The notes beneath the pieces are model-generated. The model made no database searches, was not told the DNA's origin, and saw nothing but the letters and a program-made list of their open reading frames with translations. From Labilithrix sp. (lineage in GTDB: Bacteria; Myxococcota_A; Polyangia; Polyangiales; Polyangiaceae), in assembly GCA_019637105.1 (NCBI GenBank), contig JAHBWF010000041.1, positions 1 through 50,803 on the forward strand: a stretch of 50,803 nt of DNA, in the 5' to 3' direction. The translations under genes and the position numbers were made by a program. The number at the start of each line of letters is the position of its first letter. Positions within the stretch are counted from its first letter, which is position 1. Shown here piece after piece: positions 30,132 to 41,312 of the stretch.

Positions 30132-31727
30132 TCAGCGCTTCGCGATCACGCTGTCGATCGCGCGCATGATCGCCTCGCGCCCGAACGGCTTCTTGAGGCA
30201 GAGGTTCGGCACGGCCTCGAGGAAGCTCGAGAGCGCGGGCGTGAAGGCGCCGCCGGACATGAAGACGAGGCGCGCGAGGAGATCGGGCCGCCGGCTCGCG
30301 ATCGCGTCGTGCATGTCCATCCCGGTGCGGTCGGGCATCATCACGTCGCAGAAGATCACGTCGAACGACGTGGACTTGATCGCCTCCTCGGCGGCCTCGA
30401 CGCTCGCCACCACCGTGAGGTCGTGGCTCGCGAGGACGCGCTGGAACCAGCGCCGGATCCGCGCGTCGTCGTCGATCACGAGGACGGAGCACCTGCGCGG
30501 AGAGGAGGCGGGCGGCGCGGGGACGCGCGACGGACGGCGCGTGGCGGGCGTGCTCGGAGGGAGCTCGACCGTGAAGGCGGTCCCGAGTCCCGGTCGGCTC
30601 TCCACCGCGATCGAGCCGCCGAGCTTCTCGACGATCCCCTTGCAGATCGTGAGGCCGAGGCCGGTCCCCGCGCCGAGGGGCTTCGTCGTGAAGAACGGAT
30701 CGAAGACGCGCTCGACGTGCTCGGCGGCGATCCCGCAGCCAGTGTCGCGGATCTCGATCATCGCGCCGCCGAGCAGGCTCGTGGACGTCGTGACCGTGAC
30801 GGTGTTCTCGCTCGCGCGGCCGTCGGGGATCGCGTACGCGGCGTTCAAGAGCAGGTTCAGGAAGACCTGGGTGAGGCGCACGGCGTTGGCCGACACGGCG
30901 GGGACCACCTGGAGGTTTCGTACGATCCGGGCGCGGTGACGGAGCTCGTTGTTCGCCATCTGGAGCGCGGTCTCGAGGACCGAGCGGACGTCCATCGGCT
31001 CGCGCGTGTCGTCGTCGGTCCGCGACAGCGCGCGGAGATCGCGGACGATGATCTTGATCCGCTCGACGCCCGTCCGCGCGTCCTCGAGCGCCTCGACCAT
31101 CTCGTCGGCGCGCATCGCCGCGCCGGAGCCGAGCGCCTCGACGACGACGTCGAGGTTGCCCGCGATGTACGCCAGCGGGTTGTTGATCTCGTGAGCCACG
31201 CTCCCGAGGAGCTGCCCCACGGAGGCCATGCGCTCGGCCACGACCGCCCGCCGCGCGGCGAGCGCGCGCGCCTCCGTGACGTCGCGGAAACACCACACAC
31301 GCGCCCGGACCTCGCCGTCGCTCGCGTGGACGGGCGCCGTATAGCGGCTGATCGTGCGGCCGTCGGCGAGCTCGATCTCGTCCGTCGCGACCGCCTCGTC
31401 GTCGGCGTGGAGCTGACGCACGCGCTCGACGAACGCGTCGGGTCTCGCCGCGAGCGTCGCCGTGTGCGCGAGGAGGGCCTCGCCGCCGCCGCCGCTCTCC
31501 GCGGCGCGCCGCAGCGCCTCCGGGACGTGCCACATCTCGAAGAAGCCGCGGTTGATGCTGGCGATCGTGCCCGTGTCGTCCACGACCAGGATCGCCTCGG
31601 CCACCGCCGCGAGGACGGCTCGCGTCATCGCGAGGCTCTTCGCCAGCTCCCCGTTCTTCTGTTCGATCTCGGCGCGCAGCCGGTCCAGCGCAGCGAGGAC
31701 GTCGGGGAGCGAACGCGAGGGCGGCAT
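30132..31727 (-). CDS. Hybrid sensor histidine kinase (PAS-HisKA-HATPase-REC)
   Basis: A 531-residue soluble hybrid kinase. The N-terminal coiled coil (about 8-35) is followed by a PAS domain (about 36-155), HisKA with His179 (SVAHEINNPLAYI), an ATPase domain (NAAYAIPDG N box, DTGCGIAAEH G1, GAGTGLGL G2) and a receiver with phospho-acceptor Asp461 (IFCDVMMPD) and KKPF. All key residues are present. No membrane helix, so it senses a cytoplasmic signal. Convergent with the MaoC gene (13-bp gap). No partner regulator gene is adjacent. Confidence 0.94.
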   Translation of the reverse strand: MPPSRSLPDVLAALDRLRAEIEQKNGELAKSLAMTRAVLAAVAEAILVVDDTGTIASINRGFFEMWHVPEALRRAAESGGGGEALLAHTATLAARPDAFVERVRQLHADDEAVATDEIELADGRTISRYTAPVHASDGEVRARVWCFRDVTEARALAARRAVVAERMASVGQLLGSVAHEINNPLAYIAGNLDVVVEALGSGAAMRADEMVEALEDARTGVERIKIIVRDLRALSRTDDDTREPMDVRSVLETALQMANNELRHRARIVRNLQVVPAVSANAVRLTQVFLNLLLNAAYAIPDGRASENTVTVTTSTSLLGGAMIEIRDTGCGIAAEHVERVFDPFFTTKPLGAGTGLGLTICKGIVEKLGGSIAVESRPGLGTAFTVELPPSTPATRRPSRVPAPPASSPRRCSVLVIDDDARIRRWFQRVLASHDLTVVASVEAAEEAIKSTSFDVIFCDVMMPDRTGMDMHDAIASRRPDLLARLVFMSGGAFTPALSSFLEAVPNLCLKKPFGREAIMRAIDSVIAKR

Positions 31728-31948: not shown

Positions 31949-32467
31949 TCAGTGACGGATCGCGTTGAGGCAGGCGCCGAGGAGCGAGGCGCCGATGAAG
32001 ATCGCCGCGACGGCGAGGCGTATCCAGAAGAACGTGCTCCATCCGCTCGCCCAGCCGCTCGGAGCCGCGTGGTTGTAGCCCGCGTACGGCTGCCCGCCGC
32101 CGAAGCCCGAGACGGGGTGGCCGTACGGGTTCGGCTGTGGCCCGCCGTACGGGTTCGGCGCGCCGTAGCCTTGCGGAGCATCGTAGCCCTGCGGAGCGCC
32201 GTAGCCTTGCGGAGCGCCGTAGCCCTGCGGAGCGCCGTAGCCTTGCGGAGCGCCGTAGCCTTGCGGAGCACCGTGACCCTGCGGAGCACCGTAGCCCTGC
32301 GGAGCGCCGTAGCCTTGCGGAGCGCCGTAGCCTTGCGGAGCGCCGTAGCTCTGAGGGGCTCCGTAGCCTTGCGGAGCCAGCGCCTGTCCGCAGAAGTGGC
32401 ACTGGATCGCTTGCGGGTTCGTACGCACGCCGCCGCAGGTCGGACACGTCGGAGCGCCAGCGTTCAT
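31949..32467 (-). CDS. Zinc-ribbon, QGYGAP-repeat, single-TM protein
   Basis: A 172-residue protein in three parts: a zinc ribbon at 8-28 (CPTCGG...CHFCGQ), about 14 tandem QGYGAP hexapeptides (33-115), and a C-terminal membrane helix ([22 protein letters not shown]). The repeat is Gly/Tyr/Gln-rich and intrinsically disordered, of the kind that can drive phase separation. The ATG is 7 nt after a TATCGT box. Zinc ribbon inside and C-terminal anchor suggest a tail-anchored inner-membrane protein. Function unknown. Confidence 0.8.
32110..32375. repeat. 18-bp tandem repeat coding for QGYGAP
   Basis: About 13 copies of an 18-bp unit (plus-strand form ccttgcggagcgccgtag) with sporadic point changes giving [12 protein letters not shown] and QGYDAP variants. 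Confidence 0.9.
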
Positions 32468-34799: not shown

Positions 34800-37037
34800 A
34801 TGAAGAACGATGATCCGCGCTCTCCGCGCGGCGGCTACAGCGATCCCGGGGAGCGCGACACGCGTCTCGATCCCCTCGAGGACCTGGCGGAAACGACGCA
34901 GCCGGGCTCGGTGCTGTCGCCCCCTGCGGCGGCGGATCTCGTCCCTCCCCATACGCCGCAGCCGGCCTTCTCGCCTGCGTTCGGCGCTCCAGCTCCGGCG
35001 GTCCCTCGCCCCGCCGGAGCTCCCCGTCCACCCGCTACGGCCTCGTTCCCGCCCACCGCGCCCCGCCCGCCCGGCGCGAGCGCGTACCCACCCGCCGCGA
35101 GCGGACATCCGCCTGCCGCGAGCGCGTATCCACCTGCCGCGGGGCCGTATCCACCTGCCGCGAGCGCGCATCCTCCCACCGCGCCGTATCCTGCCCGGCC
35201 GTATCCGCCCGGCACGAGCGCGTATCCGCCTGCCGCGGGGCCGTATCCGCCCGGCGCGAGCGCTCCGCCTCTCGGGCCGTCCCTGCCCCCGCCTCCGCCT
35301 CCCGGCGTTCCTCCGCCCGCGCCGTTCGCGCGGTCGCCGTTGCCGTCGGCCTCGCCGCCTGCGCCCGTCGAGACGGACGAGGCGCTCTTCCCCGGAGCCG
35401 ACCTCGGCCCTGGAGCCGACCTCGGCCCCGGAGCGGACGCCTTCGGCTCGATGCCGCCCGGGCCCGACGGGCTCCGGCCCTCGGACGTCCCGCCCGCCGG
35501 TGAGGCGTTTCGCGCGCGCGCGCCGCGCTCGCGGACGGGCTGGCCGTTCCTCCCGCTGGCGCCGCTGCTCGTGGTCGTGGTCGGGCTCGCGGTCGCGCTC
35601 GGGATCGGCCTCGTCGGCCTCGATCAGCTCTCGCGCGCCGGCGACGAGCACGCGGGCGCGCGTGCCGAGCTCATCGCCGCGACCGTGGCCGCGCGGCTCG
35701 GCGCGCTCCCGGAGCCGCGCCGCTTCGACGACGCGCAGCTCGCCGCGCGCCGGAGCGCCGCCGAGCTGCTCGTGGTGACCGCGCGGGGCGACGTCATCCA
35801 CGACCAGACGCTCGGCGCTCCGGATCGCGCCGCGCTGAGCACGATGATCTCGACGGGGCGCGGCGTCGCCGAGACGCGCATCGGCCGCGCGCGCTACGCC
35901 GTGCGCCCGATCGGCGCCGGCCCGGACGCGCCGCGCCTCGTGGTGCTCGTGCCCGAGCCGCGCGCCGCGGTGGGCGCGAACGCGCTCGCCAGCGCACTCG
36001 CGGCGCTCGCCGTGCTCCTCCTCGGCGTCGCCGCCGGCGTCGCCTACGCCGTCTCCCGCGACGTCACGCGCGACGTCGACTTCGTGACCCGCCGCGTCCG
36101 CGCGATGGCGCAGGTCCGCACCGAGCCGACCGGCGAGCTCATCCCCGCGCGCACGATGGACGAGGTCGGCCTGCTCACGGCGACGTTCAACAAGCTGGTC
36201 GGTCGCTTCGGCCTCGCGTCCAGCGCGTACCGCGGCGACCTCGCGCGGGCGAGCGCGGCGGACCGCGAGCGCGCCGCGTTCCTCGCCGCCGTCAGCCACG
36301 AGCTCCGGAGCCCGCTCAACGCCATCCTCGGCTTCGCCGACATCCTCATGGAGGAGGTCGACGGCCCGCTGTCGCCTTCGGCGAAGGAGGAGGTGGAGCA
36401 GATCCGCGGCTCGGGCGCTCACCTGCTCTCTCTCATCAACGACATCCTCGAGTTCTCGGCGCTCGAGAGCGGTCAGCTCCGCCTCACGCGCGGGCGCGTC
36501 GACGTCTTCGCGCTCGCGAACGAGGTCATCCGCGAGGCGCGCGGCCTGGTCGGCCAGAAGCCGCTCTCGGTGCGCGTGGAGGGCGAGCCGCTCATCGCGC
36601 GCGTCGACGGGCGCCGCGTCCGCCAGATCCTCGGCAACCTCGTCAACAACGCGATCAAGTTCACGCAGCGCGGCGAGGTCGTGGTCGGCGTCCGGCGCGA
36701 GGGGATGATGGCCGCGTTCCTCGTTCGGGACACCGGCCCCGGCATCTCGCCCCAGGAGCGCGCGGTCATCTTCGAGGAGTACAAGCAAGCGCGGAGCGAG
36801 CAGTTCCGCCGCCGCGGCACGGGCCTGGGGCTCGCGATCACCCGGCGCCTCGTCACGCTGCACCACGGCTCGATCTCCGTCGAGAGCGAGCTCGGGCGAG
36901 GCTCGACGTTCAAGGTGCTCCTGCCGATCGGCAACATCGACGCGCCGCCCTCGCGCAAGCTGTCGCGCCCGCCGGGCGCGCACCTCCTCCCGGGACCGGA
37001 GGCGCCGAGGCCGTCCCGGCCGGTGAGGCCGCGATGA
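34800..37037 (+). CDS. Membrane sensor histidine kinase with Pro-rich N-terminus
   Basis: A 745-residue kinase. Residues 1-245 are a disordered Pro/Ala-rich cytoplasmic region with a 7-residue YPPAASA-type repeat. Two helices (about 252-272 and 397-418) enclose a ~125-residue periplasmic sensor, then HAMP (about 420-475), HisKA with His500 (AVSHELRSPLNAIL) and an intact ATPase domain (NLVNNAIKF with Asn617, DTGPGI with Asp644, GTGLGLAI). The stop overlaps the next kinase start (ATGA). The start at 34800 is the only ATG near the domain edge; an in-frame GTG at 34768 is possible. No response regulator is adjacent. Confidence 0.92.
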   Translation: MKNDDPRSPRGGYSDPGERDTRLDPLEDLAETTQPGSVLSPPAAADLVPPHTPQPAFSPAFGAPAPAVPRPAGAPRPPATASFPPTAPRPPGASAYPPAASGHPPAASAYPPAAGPYPPAASAHPPTAPYPARPYPPGTSAYPPAAGPYPPGASAPPLGPSLPPPPPPGVPPPAPFARSPLPSASPPAPVETDEALFPGADLGPGADLGPGADAFGSMPPGPDGLRPSDVPPAGEAFRARAPRSRTGWPFLPLAPLLVVVVGLAVALGIGLVGLDQLSRAGDEHAGARAELIAATVAARLGALPEPRRFDDAQLAARRSAAELLVVTARGDVIHDQTLGAPDRAALSTMISTGRGVAETRIGRARYAVRPIGAGPDAPRLVVLVPEPRAAVGANALASALAALAVLLLGVAAGVAYAVSRDVTRDVDFVTRRVRAMAQVRTEPTGELIPARTMDEVGLLTATFNKLVGRFGLASSAYRGDLARASAADRERAAFLAAVSHELRSPLNAILGFADILMEEVDGPLSPSAKEEVEQIRGSGAHLLSLINDILEFSALESGQLRLTRGRVDVFALANEVIREARGLVGQKPLSVRVEGEPLIARVDGRRVRQILGNLVNNAIKFTQRGEVVVGVRREGMMAAFLVRDTGPGISPQERAVIFEEYKQARSEQFRRRGTGLGLAITRRLVTLHHGSISVESELGRGSTFKVLLPIGNIDAPPSRKLSRPPGAHLLPGPEAPRPSRPVRPR
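35085..35270 (+). repeat. 21-bp in-frame repeat (YPPAASA)
   Basis: About nine copies of a ~21-bp unit (e.g. gcgagcgcgtatccacctgcc) encode YPPAASA/HPPAASG/YPPAAGP in the kinase N-terminus. Confidence 0.8.
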
Positions 37038-38971
37038 GCCCGTTCGTCCAGGCCGCGGAGCGGCTCGATCGCCCCATCGCCGGGCAGCTCCTCTGGAGGA
37101 TGCTCGCGATCCAGGCCGCGACGCACGTCGTGGCGTTCCTCCTCGGCGCGGTCTTCGCGCCGCGGGTCCTCCTCCTCGAGCCGCAGTCCGCGGACGCGTC
37201 CCTCTCGGTCATCCTGACGATGGGCCTCTTCTCGGCGACGCTCTCGGCGGGGCTCACCGTGATCGTGCTCCAGCGCGTGCGGCCGCTGCTCACGGCGCTC
37301 GAGGTCGGCTCGGAGGCCGGCGATCCGGAGCACGTCCTCGCGCTCTACGACGCGCCGTCGCTCCTCTCGCTCGCCAACGTCGCCTTCGCCGGCGTCGTCT
37401 CGCTCGCCACGTTGATCCCCGCGCTCCGCCCGCAGGCGATCGACACGTACACCCAGCTCGCGCTCGTCCTCCTCGTCCTCACCCTCGTGAGCACCGCGAC
37501 GCTCCCCGCCTACGTCTTGATGCGCGCGCAGGTGGCGCGCACCCTCGAGCTCGTCTCGCCGGCCGTCGCGGAGGAGGGCCTCCGAAGGCTCGGCGGCGAG
37601 GTCCTCGGGCGCCTGCGCAAGCGCTACGTCGCCGCGGTGGCGCTGCCCGTCGCGCTCGTCGCGCTCGGCGCGTCGCTCCTCGCGGACGCGCACGCCCGCG
37701 CGTTCGACAAGGAGGCCCGCGCGAAGGACGCGGTCGACATCGCGCACGCGGCGTTCGAGTCGCTCGGCACCGGCGGCCCCGACGACGTCGCCGGTCGGGC
37801 CGAGGCGATCGAGGCCGCCGCGGCGCTCGGCTTCCACGTGCAGGTCGTCCCGACGCACGAGGGGGTCGAGACGCTTCGACAGGGCGACGAGGGAGAGACG
37901 CAGATCACCGTCCCGCTCCAGCCGGGGGCCGCGCTCGTCCGCTTCGGCACGACGCGCCTCTCGGCGGCGTTCGCGGCCTACCTCCTCCTCGCGATGGCGG
38001 CGGTGGGGCTCGCCGCGATCCTCGGCACGCGAGCGGCGGCGTTCTTCGACGCCGACGTCGCGCTGGCGACGCGCGAGGTCCGCCGCGCGGGCGTCGCCGA
38101 GGTCATGCGCGGCACGATCATCCTCCACGAGGCGCGCTTCTCGACCGTGAGCGAGCTGCTCGAGGCGATCGACGCGCTCGGCGGCATCTTCCGCGAGTTC
38201 GCGTCGGCGCAGCGCCGCGCGATCGACGCCCGCGAGGCCACGGAGCGGATGCGCGGGCTCTTGCTCGCGTCGATGAGCCACGACCTCAAGGCGCCGCTCA
38301 ACGCCGTGCTCGGCTTCACGGAGCTCGTCCGGCGCAACCCGCTCACGAAGGAGCAGCACGAGAGCCTCGCCATCATCGAGCAGCGCGGGCGCGAGCTGCT
38401 CGTGCTCATCGACACGATCCTCGACAGCGCCCGCGTCGAGGCCGGCGAGCTCGAGGTCTCGCCGGAGGCCACGCACGTCGGCGACGTCGTCATGTCGTCG
38501 GTGCTCGAGGCGCGCGACCTCGCCGTCGGCTCGGAGGTCCAGATCATGGGCGAGATCCAGCCCGGCATCCCGACCCTGCTCATCGACGGGACGCGCATCG
38601 TCCAGGCGCTCACGGCCGTCGTGATGACCGCCGCGCGCTTCAGCGACAAGGGCATCGTCCCGGTCCGCGCCACGCTGCCGGCCGATCAGGGCGCGCGCCT
38701 GCGCATCGAGGTCGAGACCAGCGGCGAGGGGCTCCCCGTCGCGGAGCGCGAGAAGATCTTCGACGCGTTCAAGAGCGCCGAGAGCGCGCGCCGCCAGGGC
38801 GGCCTCGGGCTCGGGCTCCAGCTCGCGCGGTCGATCGTCGAGATCCACGGCGGGTCGATCGAGGTCGACAACACCGACCACGGCGGGATGGTCTTCCGCG
38901 TCTGGCTCCCGGTGAAGAACGACCGCGCGTCGATCCGCGCCCGCGCCAGCCGGCCGACGCTCGCCTCCTGA
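37034..38971 (+). CDS. Degenerate membrane histidine kinase (probable pseudokinase)
   Basis: A 645-residue protein with about six membrane helices (22-45, 57-80, 113-132, 141-165, 198-218, 312-332), a HAMP-like linker, a HisKA domain with His416 (SMSHDLKAPLNAVLGF) and an ATPase domain. The ATPase N box reads QALTAVVMTAARFS, so the metal-binding Asn is Thr532, and G1 reads TSGEGL, so the ADP-binding Asp is Thr562; G2 (GGLGLGLQL) is kept. The frame is otherwise clean and no stop is seen, so selection seems to hold the fold without normal ATP binding. It overlaps the upstream active kinase by 4 bases, which suggests equal expression and perhaps heterodimers. Confidence 0.88.
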   Translation: MSPFVQAAERLDRPIAGQLLWRMLAIQAATHVVAFLLGAVFAPRVLLLEPQSADASLSVILTMGLFSATLSAGLTVIVLQRVRPLLTALEVGSEAGDPEHVLALYDAPSLLSLANVAFAGVVSLATLIPALRPQAIDTYTQLALVLLVLTLVSTATLPAYVLMRAQVARTLELVSPAVAEEGLRRLGGEVLGRLRKRYVAAVALPVALVALGASLLADAHARAFDKEARAKDAVDIAHAAFESLGTGGPDDVAGRAEAIEAAAALGFHVQVVPTHEGVETLRQGDEGETQITVPLQPGAALVRFGTTRLSAAFAAYLLLAMAAVGLAAILGTRAAAFFDADVALATREVRRAGVAEVMRGTIILHEARFSTVSELLEAIDALGGIFREFASAQRRAIDAREATERMRGLLLASMSHDLKAPLNAVLGFTELVRRNPLTKEQHESLAIIEQRGRELLVLIDTILDSARVEAGELEVSPEATHVGDVVMSSVLEARDLAVGSEVQIMGEIQPGIPTLLIDGTRIVQALTAVVMTAARFSDKGIVPVRATLPADQGARLRIEVETSGEGLPVAEREKIFDAFKSAESARRQGGLGLGLQLARSIVEIHGGSIEVDNTDHGGMVFRVWLPVKNDRASIRARASRPTLAS

Positions 38972-39294: not shown

Positions 39295-39684
39295 ATGACC
39301 GGCAAGGCAAAGATCGAAGGGCTCACGAACTCCTGGTACGGCTTCGCCGTCTTCTCGGCGATCTACGGCGTCCTCATGAAGGGCATCGGCGTGTTCTCGA
39401 TCGCGGGCGCGGTCGGCGGGCTGCTCTTCAGTTGGTTCATCACGTTCCTCATCGGCCGGGCCCTCGTCAAAAAGTCGTCGCTGACGCGCCTCGTCCTCGT
39501 CTTCACGAGCGGGCTCCTCACCGTCCTCGGCACGCTCAGCGTCGGCAGGATGGCGTGGATGTTCGTGCAGACGTGGCAGTTCGGCGTGCTCGCCAGCATG
39601 GCGTACGCCACGGTCGGCGTCTGGATGCAGGCGCGCTCGTTCCGCACGCTGATGGACGGCTCGGTCAAGGCGTACATCGGCTGA
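39295..39684 (+). CDS. Small four-helix membrane protein
   Basis: A 129-residue protein with about four hydrophobic segments (YGFAVFSAIYGVLMKGIGVF, AGAVGGLLFSWFITFLIGRAL, LVLVFTSGLLTVLGTLSVG, FGVLASMAYATVGVWMQA). GAGAGGCAGG lies just before the ATG. No family recognised and no charged catalytic motif. A perfect hairpin follows. It stands alone behind an AT-rich upstream region. Confidence 0.75.
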   Translation: MTGKAKIEGLTNSWYGFAVFSAIYGVLMKGIGVFSIAGAVGGLLFSWFITFLIGRALVKKSSLTRLVLVFTSGLLTVLGTLSVGRMAWMFVQTWQFGVLASMAYATVGVWMQARSFRTLMDGSVKAYIG

Positions 39685-39821: not shown

Positions 39822-41312
39822 TCAGGGCTCGGCGCCGGACATCGTCACGACGCTGAGCGCGTCCGGGTTGCAGATCTTCCCGCCGCCGGAGCGTGACGGC
39901 GTGAGCGTGGCCGTGTTCGGCGGAGCGGTGCTCGGCTGGTAGCGGAGCGCGACCGAGGTGGTCCTGCCGGCGCGCGTCGAGGTGCTCTGCGGGTTGCCGA
40001 GCCACGCGGGGCCGCCGGCGGTCCGCCGGAACGTCCACGCGAGCGAGGCGGTCTCGTTGCCGGTGTTCGTGATCGTGAACGACTCGCTCTTCGACGACTC
40101 GCCCTTCTTCGCCCGGAACGTCAGGTCGGTCGGCGCGACGGCGATCACGGCGCCGCGCACGTCGACGCGGAGCGTGGCGTGGTAGAGGACCCGGTCGCCT
40201 CCGCTCGTCGGCTCGATCGCGATCGTGACGGTCTCGGTGACCCGCGCGGGATCGGCGTCGAGCGGCCGCGCGCGGAACGTGATGTTCGCCGTCCCCGGCG
40301 AGCCGTAGCTCGACGAGGGCGCGGTGCCGGCCATCGCCCCCTGGAGCGTGAAGCGGCTCGGCGGCGTCAGGAGCGTCCAGCGGACGCTGCGGTTCGAGTA
40401 GTTCCGGACGACGACCGCGCGCGTGTCGGCGGGCTCGGTGCCGCAGTCCTTCTTGCCCCAGTCGGCGCCGCTGACGGTCACGGTCGTGTCGACGCGCCGC
40501 CCAGTCACGGTGAGCGCCGGCGCCGGCGCGCAGAGCCCCGCGGCGACGGGCGCGAGCGTCGTCGTCAGCGCGGCCGAGGTCGACGTGTTGCCTTTGGTGA
40601 GCTTGACCTCGATCTCCGCGTCCGAGCCGGCCTCGATCGTGAGCTGCCCCGGCGTCGCGACGAAGTCGTTCGTCGCGCCGTCAAAGCCGGTGATCGCGGC
40701 CGGGCGGAGGCCGGTGTTGCGGAGGCGCACGCGCGTCGTCCCCTCGGTGTCGAGCGGGGTCTCGCCGATGTCCGCGGAGGTCGACATCCACTCGAGCGTG
40801 GCGCCGGCGCCGACGACGCCGACCGGCACCGTCGCGAACGACGCCTCCGACGTCACGACGATGTTCGCCTTCGCGTCGCCCGACCAGGTCGGCCGCGCGA
40901 CGACCGGGATCACGATGTGGTCGCGCGGCGCGATCATCCCCTCGAGCGGGAAGTCAGTCGCGAACGGCGCGTCCGACGGCATCAGCACCTTGTACGTGCG
41001 CGGCTTGTCGGTCTGGTTCGCCACGACGAGGTTCTCGATCCGATCCGCGCCGCACCCCACGGTCCCGAAGTCGAGGACGTCGGTGACCTGGATCCCCTCC
41101 GCGTGGCTGTCGGTGTTCTGCTTCTCCTCCTCGCCGACGGCGCCGCCCGCGGGCTCGTCGGCGTCGGCCGATCGAGGCTCGGCGCGGTCCGAGCGGGACG
41201 CCAGCTCCGGCATCTCGACGCCGGCGATCTGGGCGCAGCCGAAGAGCGTCGAGGCCAGCGCGAGGACCGCGAACGGCGACCGTGAGAGTCTCCTCTGCCT
41301 ACCCCTCGTCAT
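39822..41312 (-). CDS. Lipoprotein with Hydin/choice-of-anchor-like Ig repeats
   Basis: A 496-residue exported lipoprotein (lipobox STLFGC, Cys at about 26). After a polar acidic linker it has about four ASH/Hydin-like beta domains of ~100 residues each (for example VTDVLDFGTVGCGADRIENLVV, WMSTSADIGETPLDTEGTTRVRLRNTG, LTFRAKKGESSKSESFTITNTGNETASL). Such repeats are common in large myxobacterial surface proteins and usually bind or space other domains. The Cys pairs (VGCGAD, KKDCGTE, KICNPD) may form disulphides. Alone in its operon. Confidence 0.8.
   Translation of the reverse strand: MTRGRQRRLSRSPFAVLALASTLFGCAQIAGVEMPELASRSDRAEPRSADADEPAGGAVGEEEKQNTDSHAEGIQVTDVLDFGTVGCGADRIENLVVANQTDKPRTYKVLMPSDAPFATDFPLEGMIAPRDHIVIPVVARPTWSGDAKANIVVTSEASFATVPVGVVGAGATLEWMSTSADIGETPLDTEGTTRVRLRNTGLRPAAITGFDGATNDFVATPGQLTIEAGSDAEIEVKLTKGNTSTSAALTTTLAPVAAGLCAPAPALTVTGRRVDTTVTVSGADWGKKDCGTEPADTRAVVVRNYSNRSVRWTLLTPPSRFTLQGAMAGTAPSSSYGSPGTANITFRARPLDADPARVTETVTIAIEPTSGGDRVLYHATLRVDVRGAVIAVAPTDLTFRAKKGESSKSESFTITNTGNETASLAWTFRRTAGGPAWLGNPQSTSTRAGRTTSVALRYQPSTAPPNTATLTPSRSGGGKICNPDALSVVTMSGAEP

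Follow-up and report, generated by a model that had tools for sequence, protein, structure and literature searches.

Histidine kinases are usually regarded as homodimers, and to our knowledge there are few reports of natural heteromers with divided chemistry (FasBC and CheA3/CheA4). Here a pair of adjacent kinase genes, termed HK1 and HK2, is described from a 50,803-nucleotide stretch of Labilithrix sp. DNA (the window; contig JAHBWF010000041.1 of assembly GCA_019637105.1). HK1 retains the residues of an active kinase, while HK2 retains the phospho-acceptor histidine and has lost residues of its ATP site, and comparative evidence makes it likely that the two form one heteromeric membrane kinase of class I in which HK1 phosphorylates HK2 in trans. 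Both proteins are of the HisKA class and come from a myxobacterial class, whereas the two Fas kinases are assigned to a different subfamily. Phosphorylation between two kinases reportedly also occurs with EspA and EspC of Myxococcus xanthus, which are said to be hybrid kinases, unlike HK1 and HK2. For DivL-CckA and RetS-GacS, two further systems compared below, we know of no overlapping gene pair.

FasB and FasC of group A Streptococcus formed a heterodimer but no homodimers by two-hybrid evidence, and FasC was proposed to be a pseudokinase whose histidine is phosphorylated by FasB (PMC12675982). As with HK1 and HK2, two sensor-kinase-like proteins are encoded in one locus; the Fas locus also holds the regulator FasA, whereas no conserved regulator adjoins HK1/HK2, and FasB has its own histidine, whereas the catalytic partner in one family treated below (f14) has lost it. 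In Rhodobacter sphaeroides, CheA3 and CheA4, a catalytic domain without an acceptor and an acceptor without a catalytic domain, together make up one kinase (PMC3591291). The f14 pairs appear, from their sequences, to divide labour in the same way; the CheA proteins are of another kinase class and lack whole domains, whereas HK1 and HK2 keep their folds and lose single residues. In DivL-CckA (PMC9491836) and RetS-GacS (PMC5992135), a kinase-like protein likewise acts on a partner kinase, but the phosphorylation residue of DivL is described as dispensable, whereas the acceptor histidine of HK2 is invariant. A ChrS pseudokinase variant of Corynebacterium glutamicum, a kinase without its catalytic and ATP-binding (CA) domain, acts alongside the paralogous kinase HrrS and resembles HK2 in this respect, but it is laboratory-evolved and its histidine was not needed for the benefit (PMC9491836). 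FasB/FasC would be the nearest working precedent, CheA3/CheA4 shows biochemically that a kinase can function when split, and HK1/HK2 would by analogy be alike in working and an independent case. A report on the HK1/HK2 pair itself was not found among the titles and abstract openings of the open-licence papers listed by the searches.

The two genes follow one another on the forward strand of the window and overlap by the four bases ATGA, an arrangement that would couple their translation. The first-pass annotation, made from the letters of the window, had placed HK2 and its residues His416, Thr532 and Thr562, had assigned both the N-box Asn and the G1 Asp to the upstream kinase, and had noted the overlap; all of this proved correct, and Ala528 is added here. 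The features of the pair are listed below.

34800..37037, forward strand: HK1, catalytic kinase, 745 amino acids (aa); variable Pro-rich N-terminus, transmembrane segment (TM), extracytoplasmic loop of ~121 aa, TM, linker, HisKA, HATPase_c
35565..35621, forward strand: HK1 TM1, residues 256-274 (Kyte-Doolittle scan)
35985..36041, forward strand: HK1 TM2, residues 396-414 (Kyte-Doolittle scan)
36297..36299, forward strand: HK1 phospho-acceptor His500
36648..36650, forward strand: HK1 N-box Asn617
36729..36731, forward strand: HK1 G1 Asp644
37034..37037, forward strand: ATGA stop/start overlap of HK1 and HK2 (HK1 stop TGA 37035-37037, HK2 start ATG 37034-37036)
37034..38971, forward strand: HK2, putative pseudokinase and phospho-acceptor subunit, 645 aa; four hydrophobic segments, TM5, loop of ~94 aa, TM6, linker, HisKA, degenerate HATPase_c
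38252..38446, forward strand: HK2 HisKA domain (dimerisation and histidine phosphotransfer domain, DHp), residues 407-471 (Pfam PF00512, E 2.3e-15)
38279..38281, forward strand: HK2 phospho-acceptor His416
38585..38917, forward strand: HK2 degenerate HATPase_c, residues 518-628 (Pfam PF02518, E 1.4e-19)
38615..38617, forward strand: HK2 Ala528, in place of the first N-box Asn
38627..38629, forward strand: HK2 Thr532, in place of the N-box Asn
38717..38719, forward strand: HK2 Thr562, in place of the G1 Asp

HisKA and HATPase_c both score above the Pfam curated cut-offs in HK1 and in HK2, which places the two among HisKA (class I) kinases; no named NCBIfam kinase family reached its curated cut-off for either protein among the best 25 of 76 and of 73 matched families. 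The residues of an active autokinase (His, N-box Asn, G1 Asp and G1 glycines) are complete in HK1 and incomplete in HK2 (Thr532, Thr562), where both G1 glycines and the G2-box sequence GLGLGL are still present. Other kinase cores of the same genome have the N-box Asn in 24/24 readable cases, the G1 Asp in 25/25 and the His in 22/22. Measured against this control of 25 cores, which was drawn from 20 chosen regions among 81 kinase places together with the kinase at 30132-31727 of the window and is biased to well-scoring cores, the losses of HK2 stand out beyond chance.

The N-terminal region of HK2 was searched for in 109 genomes of the window's family (f1). A match was present in 103 of them, the window's own genome counted in; five genomes gave two matches, on different parts of the query and apparently pieces of one gene, and no genome had two full-length matches. 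Of the six genomes without an HK2 match, five likewise gave no hit with the HK1 sensor profile; in G047, the remaining one, a weak hit covers the last half of that profile only. A single short HK2-like fragment was found in G005. One hundred loci were fetched, of which 99 yielded HK2, giving 100 HK2 rows with the window; L151 yielded none by blastp and the same genome was read as L210, while G068 and G070 lay outside the first 100 loci and were fetched separately. Rows ending before the HisKA motif (L076, L146, L153) or before the ATP site (L079, L155) reduce the readable numbers. The acceptor His of HK2 is kept in 97/97 readable rows, as is the Asp that follows it (97/97), while the N-box Asn is present in 0/95, the first N-box Asn in 2/95 and the G1 Asp in 1/95. 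Furthermore, HK2 has degenerated in many family members by loss of the G1 glycines and shortening of the ATP lid, the residue columns of the most degenerate CA domains being dependent on the alignment. HK1 keeps its His, both Asn, the Asp and both Gly in 94/94 rows. In 94 of the 100 HK2 rows it precedes HK2 on the same strand, and 89 of these 94 pairs have an in-frame HK2 start at -4 that overlaps the HK1 stop; the other six f1 loci (L081, L088, L109, L135, L137, L140) yielded no HK1.

The ATP-site losses have not released the CA domain of HK2 from selection. Its ratio of nonsynonymous to synonymous substitution rates (dN/dS) was 0.019, 0.012 and 0.032 against the three nearest relatives (L056, L057 and L058, respectively) and 0.10-0.21 against the more distant L059, L060, L062 and L064, each value below that of the membrane parts. 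By this measure the presumably dead domain is under strong purifying selection. Mean pairwise identity within f1 (1500 sampled pairs for each protein) was similar for the DHp domain, with 68% in HK2 versus 70% in HK1, and differed for the CA domain, with 36% versus 54%. Taken together, this contrast and the low dN/dS suggest that the CA domain of HK2 has therefore been kept, yet freed from ATP chemistry.

Homologous adjacent pairs with conserved losses, which the first-pass annotation had suggested looking for, are not confined to f1. By following the HK1 sensor, the same tandem pair was found in eight further families of the class (f4, f6, f14, f11, f13, f15, f19 and f63), nine with f1, and the -4 start overlap recurs in 30 of the 35 pairs outside f1. 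The search of the class gave a match at 1e-10 in at least 251 of 317 genomes, many of them generic; 18 loci picked for long or doubled matches were fetched and comprised 17 pairs and one fusion, which is not a frequency per family. The state of HK2 differs between families. In f6 it is canonical for both Asn and the Asp (5/5), with the G1 glycines lost in two, and in f15 the main N-box Asn and the Asp are kept (3/3). In f4 (10), f13 (4 readable), f19 (3), f63 (1) and f11 (1), the His is kept and the N-box Asn is lost.

The division of residues is most complete in f14. In all eight f14 pairs the His of HK1 is replaced (V, V, V, R, K, L, A, Q) and its ATP-site residues (N/N/D/G/G) are intact, while HK2 keeps the His-Asp and has R (7) or E (1) at the N-box Asn position. 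The same reciprocity is seen in one f11 pair, where R replaces the His of HK1. Judged by their residues, catalytic function and acceptor His thus lie on separate proteins in f14 (8/8) and in this f11 pair, while HK1 of the window still has its own His. The residue four positions after the His (His+4) of HK1 is A or R in f14 and f11 and T, S or, in one f1 row, N elsewhere. The 14 f14 genomes comprise the eight with the pair, one with a fusion (G460), and five (G453-G457) without an HK1 match covering the sensor. In G460 a single open reading frame (ORF; L247, 2474-5617, minus strand) of 1048 aa joins the HK1 sensor and a DHp remnant without a CA domain to a complete HK2, the HK2 part having Asn at the N-box position. 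Outside the class, in a sample of 377 genomes of the phylum, hits with the sensor profiles were all partial or weak, the best being 1.2e-9 (G154) and 8.3e-9 (G336) for the HK1 profile and 6.7e-4 (G147) for the HK2 profile. Pairs may nevertheless exist there, because the same profiles are weak or without matches in f11, f13, f15, f19 and f63, where pairs occur.

To relate the two proteins to each other, an unrooted tree was built from the kinase cores of 65 pairs (28 chosen f1 pairs, the window and the other families) with the trait columns removed. Every HK1 in this set has all checked ATP-site residues and every HK2 has the His, and the N-box Asn of HK2 occurs only in f6 (5) and f15 (3), that is in 8 of 64 readable proteins, HK2 of L256 being incomplete. 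The HK2 cores of the nine families lie on one side of a branch with an SH-aLRT of 99, and the HK1 cores on one side of another with an SH-aLRT of only 69. In the HK2 part, f6, with intact Asn and Asp, groups with f1 (support 96); the loss of the Asn in f1 is therefore most simply taken as separate from the losses elsewhere. Unrooted parsimony gives two changes for the HK2 Asn and two for the HK1 His.

The sensor parts point to a common origin as well. A Kyte-Doolittle scan gave six hydrophobic segments in HK2, and its TM5-loop-TM6 is homologous to the TM-loop-TM of HK1 (hhalign probability 90.9, E 1.2e-6, 193 columns); HK2 has an N-terminal four-helix part in addition. Six hydrophobic segments are also present in three HK1 of other families (L246, L251, L254). 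The view in the first-pass annotation that the two sensors are very different is too simple in this light. The pair may integrate two signals, as that annotation suggested. Taken together, the split in the tree, the homologous sensors and the six-segment HK1 proteins fit an ancient tandem duplication from which HK1 and HK2 were born. Upstream of its sensor, HK1 of the window has a Pro-rich N-terminus made of 21/42-bp repeats (35067-35270, forward strand), and in most relatives the matches to HK1 start only at about residue 210-270.

The explanation considered likely is that HK1 would be the catalytic subunit, its HATPase_c binding ATP, and HK2 the acceptor subunit, the His in its DHp domain being phosphorylated in trans by HK1 inside a mixed DHp bundle. 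The ATPase fold of HK2 itself would be catalytically dead and probably a regulatory or structural part, and the 4-base overlap would hold the two proteins stoichiometric. From His416 of HK2, and in f1 perhaps also from His500 of HK1, the phosphoryl group would be handed on to a response regulator whose gene lies elsewhere. If HK1 phosphorylates HK2, the ATP site of HK1 and the His of HK2 should never be lost, and neither was lost in any pair read; likewise, the HK2 His should stay where the HK1 His is lost, and the HK1 ATP site where that of HK2 is lost, as is the case. The heteromeric sensor with phosphorylation in trans, proposed in the first-pass annotation, thereby gains strong comparative support from pairing, overlap, the invariant HK2 His, selection on the CA domain and the reciprocal losses in f14 and f11, while the retention of an own His by HK1 of f1 tells on the other side. 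The separation of HK2 from HK1 cores in the tree, the G460 fusion and the lack of both genes in five of the six f1 genomes without an HK2 match speak for it as well.

That retention (94/94) is the first of several points that weigh against this explanation, since an HK1 homodimer could signal alone with HK2 only as a modulator. In f14, HK2 keeps the G1 Asp in 8/8 pairs, so the predicted loss of ATP binding there would rest on the N-box and the G1 glycines. HK2 stands without an adjoining HK1 in G069 (L088), G037 (L109) and G070 (L212) despite 3-5 kb of upstream sequence, HK1 being on another contig; both genes are nevertheless retained in these genomes. In the HK1 part of the tree the f6 rows are nested within f1 (fork with L104, support 93), unlike in the HK2 part, and how often the Asn was lost independently is uncertain, since parsimony needs only two changes. 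Furthermore, no regulator stands regularly beside the pair: in a scan of 135 loci, with flanks of varying length, using a receiver profile made from the window's own receiver domain, a receiver-bearing ORF was found in only 27.

Among the alternatives, the one that survives best, though unlikely, is that HK2 is an allosteric regulator of HK1, as DivL is of CckA and RetS of GacS, and never a phospho-donor. The own His of HK1 in f1 agrees with it, as does purifying selection on a dead CA domain, which would be expected of a protein-binding surface, and the five best-scoring solved-structure matches of the HK2 profile include RetS and DivL chains, though through the generic DHp-CA core only. A purely allosteric HK2 fails to explain the invariant His or signalling by the f14 and f11 pairs, in which the HK2 His is the sole acceptor left. 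The His and the next Asp of HK2 are both invariant in f1, whereas DivL can do without its phosphorylation residue (PMC9491836).

Still less probable is that HK2 serves as a phosphotransfer or sink protein phosphorylated by response regulators rather than by HK1. Conservation of the DHp domain without a working ATP site would suit such a role, and RedE in Myxococcus reportedly exchanges phosphoryl groups with a response regulator, but HK2 is often encoded next to a catalytic kinase whose stop codon overlaps its start, and this, like the reciprocal loss in f14, argues against such a function. A phosphatase role is likewise unlikely, because T or N at His+4, the HE/DxxN/T motif taken as the criterion, is absent from HK2 in 96 of 97 f1 rows, which have S, A or G (N in one; the further row L210 has T). 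HK1 has T in 68, S in 25 and N in one of 94 f1 rows at this position, S being the residue in the window. That the CA domain of HK2 binds ATP non-canonically and autophosphorylates seems very improbable: the window's HK2 does retain its G1 glycines and the G2-box GLGLGL, but the N-box Asn (0/95) and G1 Asp (1/95) are all but absent from the readable f1 rows, and in many members the G1 glycines and part of the lid have gone as well. Mere decay of the gene copy, for which the first-pass annotation had regarded homologues with normal Asn/Asp as the sign, is hardly tenable because, although f6 orthologues do have the canonical Asn/Asp (5/5) and the losses may be derived, HK2 is matched in 103/109 f1 genomes, the loss is common to all readable f1 members, and selection on the CA domain is indicated by its dN/dS of 0.012-0.032 in comparison with L056, L057 and L058.

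The response regulator of the proposed HK1/HK2 kinase has one candidate. Only three genomes, G033, G034 and G036, all of genus g23, yielded an ORF with a receiver domain immediately after HK2; there it encodes a regulator of the sigma-54 type that is NtrC-like.

L090, 6372-7757, plus strand: NtrC-type regulator ORF behind HK2, genus g23
L116, 1695-3074, minus strand: NtrC-type regulator ORF behind HK2, genus g23
L121, 2888-4354, minus strand: NtrC-type regulator ORF behind HK2, genus g23

Its closest relative in the window's genome, C10:20707-22083, has 72% identity versus 43% for the next among the matches listed, and no kinase core was found in the fetched flanks of this gene or of the best matches in five other genomes. 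Close matches to the g23-type regulator are present in the pair-less genomes G009, G010, G035 and G047, as well as in f2, f5 and f8, three families in which the searches revealed no pair. The genomes G001, G002, G003, G004 and G070 have both kinases and gave no match to it at E 1e-100. Because this distribution differs from that of the pair, the NtrC-type regulator was rejected as an established partner and is kept only as a candidate. HK2 of L114 and related loci is followed by ruvB and next by a receiver-GAF-PAS-type protein (named from its translation), with no specific link seen. The largest cluster of same-strand neighbours besides the kinases, in 28 of 52 loci, is an upstream acetyltransferase-like ORF (named from its sequence), the clustering being coarse and blurred by spurious ORFs of GC-rich DNA.

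Several other genes lie near the pair in the window. On the opposite strand is a hybrid histidine kinase whose core residues are canonical and which carries a receiver at its C-terminus (30132-31727, minus strand). A small protein whose translation has two CxxC motifs and a hydrophobic C-terminus (31949-32467, minus strand) is encoded there as well; within its gene, 32156-32377 comprises ~12 copies of an 18-bp unit reading GYGAPQ. Downstream of HK2 are a hydrophobic-looking ORF of 129 aa without a Pfam match (39295-39684, plus strand) and a protein with several HYDIN/ASH-type Ig-like matches, families named for ciliary and centrosomal proteins (39822-41312, minus strand).

On balance, the pairs would seem to be obligate heteromeric HisKA kinases that arose from a tandem duplication, occur in nine or more families of a single class, and have had catalysis and acceptance divided between their subunits more than once; in f14 and f11 the division would be fully reciprocal, with neither protein a kinase alone. 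If this is true, the f14 and f11 pairs are a natural version of the complementation between His-dead and ATP-dead kinase mutants. Annotating such genes as ordinary kinases calls for caution. One gene pair spans near-intact duplicates (f6, f15), asymmetric pseudokinase pairs (f1, f4, f13, f19, f63) and reciprocal pairs (f14, f11), and this spread of states makes possible a direct test of how a homodimer may become an obligate heteromer, in which order the losses occur and what role a dead ATPase domain may retain.

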